A stretch of 50,923 bases of DNA from Candidatus Saccharimonadota bacterium (lineage in GTDB: Bacteria > Patescibacteriota > Saccharimonadia > Saccharimonadales > Saccharimonadaceae). The translations under genes and the position numbers were made by a program. Location: NCBI GenBank assembly GCA_010014525.1, contig RZZT01000002.1:1-50923 (forward strand). The letters run 5' to 3'. Shown one piece after another: positions 4,550-50,923 of this stretch. How positions within the stretch are numbered: the first letter of the stretch is position 1; each line of letters begins with the position of its first letter. A model generated the notes under the pieces. The model saw only the letters and a list, made by a program, of their open reading frames with translations. It was not told where the DNA came from and did not search any database.

Positions 4550-4853
4550 TTAATCCTCGGAATCGTCTTTATGCTGCTCGTCGTACCATTTTTGAAACTC
4601 TTCCATGTCTTCTATAGAGTAAGGCTTGACGTCAGCTTCGTCCGTTCGGCCATCAACTAAGCCACGGTTTCTGAGATATGCTTCGAGTCTCATTGTCTTG
4701 AAGCTATTTTCGGCGTTTGAGTCGTATGCTCCCTGAATGGCTTTAAATTGCAAAGATGTCAATAAGAATAAAACTACCGCTGCCACAGTCAACGCCGCGT
4801 TGGAAATTACTAAAAATTTGATGGTTTTCTGCTCTTTTTGTTTGTTTTTTCAT
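4550..4853 (-). CDS. Small membrane protein, reading frame interrupted at a poly-A start
   Basis: Listed TTG start (4792) has no SD; upstream ATGAAAAAAC (4853) with CAGGAA SD is one frame off. Removing one A gives MKNKQKEQKTIKFLVISNAALTVAAVVLFLLTS. Confidence 0.6.
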
Positions 4854-46698: not shown

Positions 46699-48501
46699 TT
46701 AGCTTTCCTCAAACTGTGAATTGTAAAGCTTGGCATAGCGCCCGCCAAGTTCGATCAGTTCGCTATGTGTGCCCTGCTCTGCGATATTTCCTTTATCCAT
46801 CACGAGAATTAAATCAGCATTTCGAATTGTGCTCAAGCGGTGAGCAATCACAAAACTGGTGCGGCCGTGAGTTAATTTATCCATCGCCGATTGAATGGCT
46901 GCTTCGGTGCGGGTGTCAACAGAGCTAGTTGCTTCATCCAAAATCATCATTGGTGCATCCGCTAGGATTGCTCGAGCGATTGTCAAGAGCTGCTTTTCTC
47001 CGGCTGAGATATTGTCAACGTCCTCTGAGATAACTGTATCGTATCCATCCGGCAGGGTGCGAATGAAGTGGTCGGCGTGTGCCGCTTGGGCCGCTGCCAC
47101 GATTTCTTCGCGCGTAGCGTCGGGCTTGCCATAGCTTAAGTTTTCGGCAATAGTGCCGCTGAATAGCCACGTATCCTGCAATACCATTCCAAACTGTGCT
47201 CGTACGTCTTCGCGGCTCAGTTTTTTGATATCAACTCCATCAATCGTAATTTTCCCCGAATCAATTTCGTAAAAGCGCATAAGTAAATTCACTAAAGTTG
47301 TTTTACCCGCACCGGTTGGGCCAACGATTGCTACGTTTTGGTGAGGCTTAACTTTAGCTGTGAAATTTGAAATAATCGGCTCACCTTGTTTGTATGAAAA
47401 ATTAACATTATCAAACACAACAGACCCTTTGACTCTAGCGGGCAATTTATGCTCAGTAGAATCTTTGGACTGCTCCTCGGCCTCAAGAAAACCAAATACA
47501 CGCTCCGCCGCCGCCACTGTTGACTGCACGACTGTCATCGAGTTAGCAACTTGAGATAGCGGCTGAGTGAATTGACTCATATATTGGATAAACGCCAAAA
47601 TATCACCGATTGAAATCTGCCCATTTATTGCCCTGATTCCACCAATCACGGCAATTGCTACGTCACCGATTCGGCTAACGAAGCTCATCATCGGCATCAT
47701 AAGTCCGCCAAAGAATTGTGAATACCAAGCGCTTTTGAGCATATTTTCATTAATTTTATTGAACGTCGCGATTGATTTTTTCTCGCCGTTGTAGGCTTTC
47801 ATAATCTCGTGCGATCCCAAAATCTCTTCTACGTGACCATTGATACGGCCTGTTTCGCGCTGTAAATCGGCAAAATATTTCTGTGAAGATTTCATTATGA
47901 AACTAATTAGCGCTAATGAAATTGGTACAATTACAATTGCAATCAGCGTCATTTCCCAGCTGATTCGTAGCATCATGATTGCCACGCCAATGAGAGTCAC
48001 AGTTGATGTAATGATTTGCACTAAGCTTTGCGATAAATTCTGGCCAACAATTTCTAAGTCGTTCGTGACGAGCGAAACAATATCGCCGGTCTCGGTTTTG
48101 TCAAAATATGAAAGCGGTAGCCGAGCAATCTTTTTTGATAATTGTTCACGTAAATTAAATGTAATTCGCTGAGAAATGTAGCTCATCACCCAACTTTGGA
48201 GGTAATTGAAAGTTGCCGATAGTATATATAGCCCAATCAGGATAAAGCCAATTCGTGAAACCTCAGCAAGATCAATCGCAAAAACCGGACCTTTGGCGGT
48301 CATTTTCAGGCCATTGGCCACAGCATTTGTCATATCTCCAATTAGTTGCGGAGCAAAAATTGTAAAGACGGCGCTAATCACGGCTGCGATAATCACCAAC
48401 GGCAACCGAATTTTAAACGGTTTTAGATATACGAATAATTTTCTAATTGTTCCGCTAAAATCTTTAGCTTTTTGTTGCGGATGGCGATTTCTTGGTCCCA
48501 T
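46699..48501 (-). CDS. ABC exporter (TM+ATPase)
   Basis: VGPTGAGKTTLVNLLMRFYE, ISAGEKQLLTIARAI, DEATSSVDT. Confidence 0.95.
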   Translation of the reverse strand: MGPRNRHPQQKAKDFSGTIRKLFVYLKPFKIRLPLVIIAAVISAVFTIFAPQLIGDMTNAVANGLKMTAKGPVFAIDLAEVSRIGFILIGLYILSATFNYLQSWVMSYISQRITFNLREQLSKKIARLPLSYFDKTETGDIVSLVTNDLEIVGQNLSQSLVQIITSTVTLIGVAIMMLRISWEMTLIAIVIVPISLALISFIMKSSQKYFADLQRETGRINGHVEEILGSHEIMKAYNGEKKSIATFNKINENMLKSAWYSQFFGGLMMPMMSFVSRIGDVAIAVIGGIRAINGQISIGDILAFIQYMSQFTQPLSQVANSMTVVQSTVAAAERVFGFLEAEEQSKDSTEHKLPARVKGSVVFDNVNFSYKQGEPIISNFTAKVKPHQNVAIVGPTGAGKTTLVNLLMRFYEIDSGKITIDGVDIKKLSREDVRAQFGMVLQDTWLFSGTIAENLSYGKPDATREEIVAAAQAAHADHFIRTLPDGYDTVISEDVDNISAGEKQLLTIARAILADAPMMILDEATSSVDTRTEAAIQSAMDKLTHGRTSFVIAHRLSTIRNADLILVMDKGNIAEQGTHSELIELGGRYAKLYNSQFEES

Positions 48502-50366
48502 TATTTAGCTCCTTTCTTTGGCTTAGTGCCTGTCTTTTTCGGTTTACTTGTAGCCGTCCGTGGCGTCATTTTAGCTTTAGCTCCCGAACTCGCTATTTCG
48601 TCTTCCGACAGCTGAGATTTGGCAATTTCTTGATAAATTTTGTTTGTCTTCAAGAGTTGTTCATGCTTGCCGATGCCAGCAATTCTTCCGCCGTCTAAAA
48701 CGATAATGTTGTCGGCGTGAGTAATGCTTGAAACTCTCTGGGCAACGATAAACTTCGTAGTGCCGATGGTCTTTTTTGCAAGCTGAGCCCGCAATTTGGC
48801 GTCGGTCTTGAAATCTAAGGCGCTGAAGCTATCGTCAAAAATCATAATGGGCGCGTTTTTAGCAATAGCACGCGCGATTGACAACCGCTGCTTCTGCCCA
48901 CCAGAAAAATTTCGTCCGCCTTGTGCTACGTGGTCGCTAATTCCTTTCGGTAATTTATTCACAAAATCCCAAGCTTGTGCAATTTTCAAAGCTGCCACTA
49001 CTTGTTCGTCGCTTATTCCGCTGTTGCTACCGTAAGCGATATTCGAGCGAATGGTGCCCGAAAGTAGCATCGATTTCTGTGAGGCGTAGCCAATTAAATT
49101 ATGCAAATCGGCTTGTTTGATATTACGAATATCTACGCCGCCAATTAGGATTTGCCCTTCACTGACGTCATAAAAACGAGGAATCAATTTGGCAATTGTT
49201 GATTTTCCAGAACCAGTTCCACCAATTACCGCGATAGTTTCACCAGAATTTATCTTGAAGTTTATATCGCTCAAAATACTATCTTCAGAATCCTGATATT
49301 TAAAACTGACATTCTTAAATTCAATCGAATTTTCAGTTGGCACCGCCACCAAATCGGCGTCGTCATTATCGTTAATACTCAAATCCGTATCAAGAACTTC
49401 TTTAATACGGCCAAGCGAAACAATCATTCGCGGCATAAATACAAAAATCATTGAGAGCATCATAAATGCAAAAGTTGTTTGTCCTACATATTGGATTAAG
49501 GCAAAAATATTTCCTATCTGACTTCCGACGTATGCCATTAACTCGGTTGGGTTGGTGATTCCTGCGCTACCCTTGTCTGCTAGATAAGCACCCAGCCAAA
49601 CAATTGCTATCATCGAAAATCCCGAAACCATTGTCATTACAGGGCTAATTAGGCTCATTGTGCGGTCGATGAACAGATTAACTTTTGAAATATCACGGTT
49701 AACTTCTGCGAATTTGCCTTCTTCAACAGACTCATTATCAAAAGCTCTAATCACTCGAAGACCGGTAATTGTCTGGCGAGTTTGCATATTTAGGCGGTCG
49801 ACATTTTTCTGGATGATTTTGAATTTTGGCACGGCAAAAATTGTCACAATTGCAACGATTGTCAAAATAGCCATTATACAAGCTAGAACTATCCAGCTCA
49901 TGTCGGCGGAGATTCTGAAAACATTAATCACCGCTCCGATTCCAACAAACGGCGCGTAAATACCCATTCGTAGCGTCATATTGAAAGTCTGTTGAAATTG
50001 CTGGGCATCATTGGTGGTGCGTGTAATCAAGCTGGCAACCGAGAACTTACTAAATTCATTCATCGAAAATTGCTCAATTAGCTCAAAAGTGTCACGCCGT
50101 AGGTCACGCGCCATACTAGCTGCAATACGTGAAGCTAGCGCCATACTCAAAACCATAAAAATTCCACCGAGTAGCGCAATCCCTAGCATTGTAAAGCCGT
50201 GTTCGTAAATTGCACTCATATTCTTCAGCGCTACACCTTCGTTAATGATCTTGCTGGTATATTGAGGTAGCTCAAGGTTGATACTCGCTGAAATAGCGGT
50301 AAAAATACCCATAAGTATAATTTGCCACCAATATCTTTTAGCGTAATGAAAAATTAGTTTTAGCAC
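48501..50366 (-). CDS. ABC exporter (TM+ATPase), partner of downstream exporter
   Basis: IGGTGSGKSTIAKLIPRFYD, FSGGQKQRLSIARAI, DDSFSALDF; GTG start at 50366 with GGGAGGA SD. Confidence 0.94.
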   Translation of the reverse strand: MLKLIFHYAKRYWWQIILMGIFTAISASINLELPQYTSKIINEGVALKNMSAIYEHGFTMLGIALLGGIFMVLSMALASRIAASMARDLRRDTFELIEQFSMNEFSKFSVASLITRTTNDAQQFQQTFNMTLRMGIYAPFVGIGAVINVFRISADMSWIVLACIMAILTIVAIVTIFAVPKFKIIQKNVDRLNMQTRQTITGLRVIRAFDNESVEEGKFAEVNRDISKVNLFIDRTMSLISPVMTMVSGFSMIAIVWLGAYLADKGSAGITNPTELMAYVGSQIGNIFALIQYVGQTTFAFMMLSMIFVFMPRMIVSLGRIKEVLDTDLSINDNDDADLVAVPTENSIEFKNVSFKYQDSEDSILSDINFKINSGETIAVIGGTGSGKSTIAKLIPRFYDVSEGQILIGGVDIRNIKQADLHNLIGYASQKSMLLSGTIRSNIAYGSNSGISDEQVVAALKIAQAWDFVNKLPKGISDHVAQGGRNFSGGQKQRLSIARAIAKNAPIMIFDDSFSALDFKTDAKLRAQLAKKTIGTTKFIVAQRVSSITHADNIIVLDGGRIAGIGKHEQLLKTNKIYQEIAKSQLSEDEIASSGAKAKMTPRTATSKPKKTGTKPKKGAK

Positions 50367-50454
50367 GGTTCCTCCCCTGTCCATTTAATTATTGTTTGAA
50401 TAAGTTCGCTCATATTATTTTAACACTCTTTGCTTTGGTGCACAAGAGTTTCGG

Positions 50455-50490
50455 GGCAATAAAAAACTGCCGAACGAATGAGTTCGGCAG
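50455..50490 (-). terminator. Terminator of zinc-knuckle microprotein gene
   Basis: CTGCCGAAC-gaatga-GTTCGGCAG stem followed on minus strand by TTTTTTATTG. Confidence 0.85.
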
Positions 50491-50557
50491 AAACTGGAAG
50501 GTACTTGAGCGGATGGGCTCAGTTGGTTTTTTGTTTTGCTGTGCAATGGAGGGGGGG

Positions 50558-50674
50558 CTATTTTTTGACGTAACCTTTTCCATTGCACAATGTGCACGGG
50601 TGTTTCGTATAAAACGGGGCAATCGTGATGTGCCCCTTCCCGTCGCATTTTGGACATAATATTTCTTTTGCCAC
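50558..50674 (-). CDS. 38-aa DnaJ-type CxxCxGxG zinc-knuckle microprotein
   Basis: GTG start: VAKEILCPKCDGKGHITIAPFYTKHPCTLCNGKGYVKK*; AAGGAGGTGATT SD, TTGACT-17-TATAAT promoter, downstream terminator. Confidence 0.85.
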   Translation of the reverse strand: MAKEILCPKCDGKGHITIAPFYTKHPCTLCNGKGYVKK

Positions 50675-50763
50675 ATAAATCACCTCCTTGGTGTCTTCAG
50701 GTCAAAAGTGTCAAAACAAAAAACTAAAAGTTGGAAACAGCGTTGTAGGCTACTACATCTACT

Positions 50764-50792
50764 ATTATATCACGAAACGCCCAAAAAGTCAA
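50764..50792 (-). promoter_or_regulatory. Promoter TTGACT-N17-TATAAT of microprotein gene
   Basis: -10 at 50764-50769, -35 at 50787-50792. Confidence 0.8.
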
Positions 50793-50809
50793 TACTTATG
50801 ACTATTTTA

Positions 50810-50838
50810 TTGACTAAACTGCATATTTTTGCTAAAAT
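50810..50838 (+). promoter_or_regulatory. Promoter TTGACT-N17-TAAAAT of tRNA-Glu
   Basis: -35 at 50810-50815, -10 at 50833-50838. Confidence 0.8.
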
Positions 50839-50848
50839 CTAACCATGT

Positions 50849-50923
50849 GGCCTCATCGTCTAACGGTTAGGACATCAGGTTCTCATCCTGGCAATCGGGG
50901 TTCGATTCCCCGTGAGGTCACCA
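50849..50923 (+). tRNA. tRNA-Glu (anticodon CTC), CCA encoded
   Basis: GGCCTCA/TGAGGTC acceptor stem, TCAGG-TTCTCAT-CCTGG anticodon arm, CGGGG-TTCGATT-CCCCG T arm, CCA end. Confidence 0.95.

Follow-up and report, generated by a model that had tools for sequence, protein, structure and literature searches.

A predicted 38-residue DnaJ-type zinc microprotein encoded beside tRNA-Glu in a Saccharibacteria genome, and its stand-alone relatives

The stretch of DNA that we analysed, referred to here as the window, comprises 50,923 nucleotides and is contig 50 of an assembly of 0.69 Mb (genome G000). Close to its right-hand end, a small minus-strand gene lies between a gene for an ABC transporter and a divergent tRNA-Glu gene (Table 1). 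Translation of its ORF gives VAKEILCPKCDGKGHITIAPFYTKHPCTLCNGKGYVKK, a 38-residue protein with two CxxCxGxG motifs. The original prediction had described a Shine-Dalgarno (SD) sequence and a GTG start ahead of this ORF, as well as a TTGACT-N17-TATAAT promoter and a leader of ~80 nt, and all of these are present in the DNA, the estimate for the leader following from the 89 nt that separate the -10 hexamer from the GTG codon. Seven sites in the whole window score at least 11 out of 12 as promoters and that of the microgene (50792-50764) is among them, whilst the best SD match elsewhere, in a scan of the 37 larger ORFs of the window, is 6 nt long. The predicted terminator also exists, but it lies beyond the interval to which the gene and its signals had originally been assigned. 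Based on these signals, we infer transcription and translation of the microgene, which is probably an independent, monocistronic and strongly expressed unit.

Table 1. Features of the microgene locus, with positions numbered from the first nucleotide of the window
Feature	Position	Strand	Remarks
ABC transporter gene	48501..50384	-	Downstream of the microgene; second synteny anchor
Intrinsic terminator	50461..50490	-	CTGCCGAAC-N6-GTTCGGCAG-TTTTTT; 9-bp stem, 6-nt loop, T6
Perfect 11-bp inverted repeat	50540..50589 (50540-50550 / 50579-50589)	-	Codons of the second motif pair with the 3' UTR
CDS, 38-aa DnaJ-type predicted single-zinc microprotein	50558..50674	-	GTG start at 50674, TAG stop at 50560-50558
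5' leader	50675..50763	-	No match to Rfam, T-box included
Shine-Dalgarno AAGGAGGTGAT	50679..50689	-	Contains the sole AAGGAGGT on either strand of the 50.9-kb window
-10 hexamer TATAAT	50764..50769	-	Preceded by TG
-35 hexamer TTGACT	50787..50792	-	With the -10 hexamer, spacer of 17 and score of 11/12
tRNA-Glu(CTC)	50849..50923	+	Divergent from the microgene and marker of the slot; G001, G003 and G004 are arranged alike

At no more than 41 aa, the ORF of the microgene falls under the usual cut-offs for gene calling. It is overlapped in another frame by an ORF of 88 aa (ATG at 50676), which we rejected as a real gene, as it has no counterpart at the orthologous locus and its Pfam match is meaningless. 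Translated in six frames, the window contains the pair of CxxCxGxG motifs once, and 150 Markov-simulated windows do not contain it at all.

A search of related genomes for conserved cysteines and for synteny at tRNA-Glu had been suggested as a check, and we found such a homolog in G001, a genome of the same genus. There, a 39-aa ORF, MAEFKECPTCKGSGHIYHAFTPKTLCSDCKGSGLVKVSK, occupies the same site between the ABC transporter gene and tRNA-Glu; it is ~50% identical to the window protein and keeps all four cysteines and all four motif glycines. Upstream of it, at a distance of 88 nt, is a 12/12 promoter (TTGACA-17-TATAAT); the ORF also has an SD of its own, and reading by eye shows an inverted repeat with a T-run behind it after the stop codon. 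Overall, the zinc microgene is present in only two of the five genomes of genus g1. Over the 37 aligned codons, differences between the window gene and its G001 ortholog number 13, 14, and 26 at codon positions 1, 2, and 3, respectively, a count taken from a protein-guided codon alignment, which itself favours third-position differences, the unguided control covering the pattern of gaps only. In that unguided DNA alignment, the gaps are of 3 and 6 nt only. The proportions of synonymous and nonsynonymous differences are 0.85 (pS) and 0.39 (pN); as the synonymous sites are saturated, we give no dN/dS ratio for this pair. Among close pairs of other family members, however, the three ratios that could be computed lie between 0.03 and 0.15, which contradicts the value near 1 that had been put forward as grounds for abandoning the gene. 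Taken together, the third-position bias, the codon-sized gaps, and the low dN/dS indicate that the encoded protein is under purifying selection, and at the level of DNA sequence the 38-aa ORF is confirmed as a real gene.

Profile searches revealed ~40 stand-alone relatives of the microprotein, nearly all of them in the bacterial family of the window genome, where they are spread over genera g1, g2, g4, and g11. Outside that family, a sample of 380 genomes of the phylum gave two matches at an E-value of 1e-8, both of them full-length ORFs (370 and 376 aa), and at weaker E-values a sample of the order gave two short frames (72 and 105 aa). The only other match in the window genome itself is a full-length DnaJ. 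All eight motif residues of C..C.G.G-C..C.G.G are invariant in the 29 aligned sequences. Most members from g2 and g11 carry an additional N-terminal CxxC...C/H (C2HC) finger, whilst the window protein and its G001 ortholog have nothing beyond the DnaJ module. Most relatives are preceded by a promoter-like site scoring 9-12 of 12 and by a strong SD, both being sequence predictions from a simple consensus scan. We define the group by a short ORF, the invariant CxxCxGxG pair, a promoter-like site of its own and a strong SD, and the window gene, as predicted, has each of these. Literature searches on Saccharibacteria that combined small proteins with zinc fingers, or that addressed small open reading frames, found no papers, and this family-wide set of stand-alone DnaJ-type zinc microproteins is previously undescribed. 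One genome, G490, has three zinc-module ORFs (L084, L103, and L104), two of which lie on different contigs and have open frames of equal length and nearly equal scores.

An AlphaFold model built with 29 sequences consists of four strands, with a mean pLDDT of 90 and a pTM of 0.50. When it was searched with Foldseek, the top matches were the zinc module of UvrA, anti-TRAP (2bx9), DnaJA2, BSD2 (6ekb), and E. coli DnaJ (1exk). The match probabilities are near 1, yet the E-values are weak (the best against the PDB is 0.03), as expected for a query of 38 residues. The four cysteines, spaced as in DnaJ, suggest that the protein binds zinc. The original prediction correctly recognised a stand-alone module of the DnaJ type; its description of "two zinc knuckles" is imprecise, since homology with anti-TRAP and DnaJ makes it most likely that the two half-sites form one zinc site, that is, a single ribbon, and not two CCHC knuckles.

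The microprotein falls below the curated cut-off of every Pfam and NCBIfam family that it matches. Its best NCBIfam match is to anti-TRAP (RtpA/YczA; PF15777, NF058604) of Bacillus subtilis, which is likewise very small, stands alone and has a single DnaJ-like zinc ribbon; a ribbon made from two CxxC motifs is common to both, judging by the motifs and by the fold match to 2bx9. The scores are, however, 31.6 bits against a cut-off of 65 (NF058604) and 20.1 bits against a cut-off of 32 (PF15777). Anti-TRAP is trimerised by a C-terminal helix (PMC11255114), which is absent from the microprotein, as it ends at residue 38 and its model has strands only. A gene for TRAP (PF02081) was found in none of the 26 genomes searched, the B. 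subtilis control being positive, and no T-box was matched in 49000-50923 at E-values of up to 1. We therefore rejected the identification of the microprotein as anti-TRAP, given the scores below cut-off and the lack of TRAP, of a T-box and of the helix for trimerisation. In G007 (genus g4), a relative of 59 aa (L088, 1483-1659, plus strand) does exceed the Pfam threshold for Anti-TRAP, with 41.6 bits where 32 are required, and despite this, no TRAP gene was found in that genome.

With the cysteine-rich domain of DnaJ/Hsp40 (PF00684; 23.6 bits against a cut-off of 32.7), the microprotein shares the CxxCxGxG half-sites and the hairpin fold (1exk), but it has two motifs instead of four and lacks both the J domain and the client-binding domain; the window genome encodes its own full-length DnaJ as well. 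BSD2/ZnJ2 Rubisco assembly chaperones (PF25436) are stand-alone DnaJ-type zinc domains that also lack a J domain (6ekb; see also PMC5818400). In contrast to the microprotein, they are chloroplast proteins, are larger and act on RbcL, and the sequence match is weak. The C(P)XCG zinc-finger micro-proteins of Haloferax volcanii, such as HVO_0758 and HVO_2753, are single-domain proteins of <70 aa with two cysteine pairs, and most of their deletions give phenotypes (PMC10716476, PMC11241148). Those proteins are archaeal and the likeness is one of size and cysteine pairing only, as the motifs of the microprotein read CPKCD and CTLCN and have the form CxxCxGxG, not C(P)XCG. Small phage proteins with the same predicted fold were common in the structure search and some are similar in size (e.g., phi92 gp070, 46 aa); these are phage-borne and uncharacterised, and among the matches listed they are at most 39% identical to the microprotein.

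The site beside tRNA-Glu is occupied by the zinc microgene in G000 and G001, whereas in G003 and G004 a different ORF, of 49 or 53 aa, diverges from tRNA-Glu and has a similarly placed promoter-like site. The two proteins encoded there (L106, 1483-1632, plus strand; L009, 2376-2537, minus strand) are ~49% identical to each other, and neither has a match in the libraries. G002 has no microgene at its tRNA-Glu site; beside the tRNA gene it has an ORF that we call aldo/keto-reductase-like from reading its sequence (L010, 595-1419, plus strand), split by a stop codon into 219 aa and a 37-aa remnant. In a mixed set from g1, g2, g4, and g11, a UvrD/PD-(D/E)XK helicase-nuclease is encoded upstream of 32 of the 44 distinct zinc-module ORFs. 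Linkage to the helicase-nuclease was rejected as a general rule, because in g1 the helicase gene is located elsewhere and is not followed by a zinc microgene.

Of 30 helicase loci in g2, 22 were assigned by a script an ORF of 25 aa or more behind an SD, and another five (L109, L111, L113, L123, and L127), missed by the SD pattern or the ORF rule, were added by eye; reading of the printed sequence gave no such ORF at L120, L122, and L130. Six of the 22 predicted ORFs encode a DnaJ module, six a C2HC finger only, and ten no zinc motif, these classes being assigned by regular expression at the same loci from which the idea of a slot was drawn. The microproteins encoded in the g2 slot, which combine a C2HC finger with the DnaJ module, have the C2HC finger only or are zinc-free, follow similar AAGG-GGTGA SDs. 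Among the 25 loci scanned for tRNA genes, a single g2 locus has one close by, so we treat the g2 slot as comparable to that of g1 and not as identical to it. Eight zinc-free microproteins behind the helicase-nuclease (L108, L114, L118, L121, L128, L129, L131, and L133) appear by eye to be related to one another, with a motif like TGxSxxFTxTxxGYxxAAxxxxexxxxGHxVxxD, and the three of them that were searched had no match in Pfam or PHROG. It is conceivable, and we suggest it tentatively, that such a slot keeps the position of its promoter and exchanges the protein, so that the bacterial family would possess a set of swappable, strongly expressed microproteins, which perhaps modulate the helicase-nuclease or take part in conflict with phages.

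As to what the window protein does, for which the original prediction had tentatively named RNA binding or an accessory role to chaperones, we propose that its 38 residues would fold around one zinc ion, with the two half-sites on a four-strand hairpin resembling one half of the cysteine-rich domain of DnaJ. The module would then dock on a single partner, either a protein or a complex of protein and RNA, and alter the activity of that partner, by the same logic as anti-TRAP on TRAP and BSD2 on RbcL; it would be neither an enzyme nor an independent chaperone. We prefer docking over binding to nucleic acid because anti-TRAP and BSD2, the best characterised among stand-alone proteins of this fold, act on proteins. 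As this is an argument by precedent, our confidence in docking is modest, and this step is less certain than expression and zinc binding. We give about an even chance to the complete reading, in which a real, transcribed, and probably strongly expressed gene encodes a module with one zinc ion that docks on a partner and modulates it.

A minority possibility, to which we give some weight, is direct binding of RNA or single-stranded DNA by the zinc hairpin, which would act either as a small RNA-binding protein or as a Q-like transcription accessory. The fold is matched in nucleic-acid-binding contexts (UvrA and lambda Q, by Foldseek), there are weak PHROG matches to Q-like antiterminators, and many g2 relatives add the C2HC finger; the g1 members, however, lack it. 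All 30 stand-alone members counted have a net positive charge, but so do 29 of 36 zinc modules from the ordinary DnaJ proteins of the same bacteria (median +3), and this control removes the weight of charge as an argument for RNA binding.

It is unlikely, in our view, that the microgene is phage-derived or anti-phage cargo that has been kept for defence or counter-defence. Such an origin would agree with the frequency of stand-alone modules of this fold in phage proteins, with the patchy presence of relatives (22 of 174 g2 genomes), with the unrelated microproteins in the same slots of sister genomes and with the location of the g2 slot behind the helicase-nuclease. Against it, no phage genes were seen beside the window gene, a two-sequence profile found no relative in viral contigs, a search with defence models gave no match of weight, and the synteny is common to G000 and G001.

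Storage or delivery of Zn(II) by an abundant, thiol-rich peptide, acting as a buffer or metallochaperone, appears improbable. Four cysteines in 38 residues and strong expression signals would suit such a role, but metallothionein-like buffers are richer in cysteine and less ordered, and the conserved glycines and the hairpin fit a folded interaction module; nor did any of the other analyses happen to reveal a zinc-regulated element. That the RNA is functional and the ORF incidental is very improbable, since the better-than-shuffled folding of the predicted G000 transcript (z = -5.65), where the inverted repeat covers the 3' end of the ORF, is not seen for the G001 ortholog (z = -0.14), no Rfam family matches, and the protein is conserved. 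A riboswitch, T-box or structured leader was rejected on the same grounds of Rfam and of a folding excess that G001 does not share, and no 11-bp inverted repeat was reported at the corresponding place in G001.

Bacteria with reduced genomes that depend on a host are expected to drop dispensable genes; this bacterial family nonetheless retains tiny zinc proteins, whose genes bear strong expression signals and yet can be missed by gene callers. Should the slots prove to be genuinely exchangeable, they would provide a defined set of short proteins that can be synthesised and whose partner and purpose are directly testable, and they would mark a process that changes rapidly in Saccharibacteria.

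Two further features of the window were observed away from the microgene. On the minus strand at 23673-23590, a perfect TTGACA-17-TATAAT promoter has CCTCGCC...GCGAGG with a T-run no more than ~80 nt downstream of it; this is a possible short RNA gene, and it has no match in Rfam. At 4853-4550, also on the minus strand, a small ORF that starts with ATG at 4853 appears to be frameshifted relative to an 80-aa, TTG-started ORF downstream (4792-4550).
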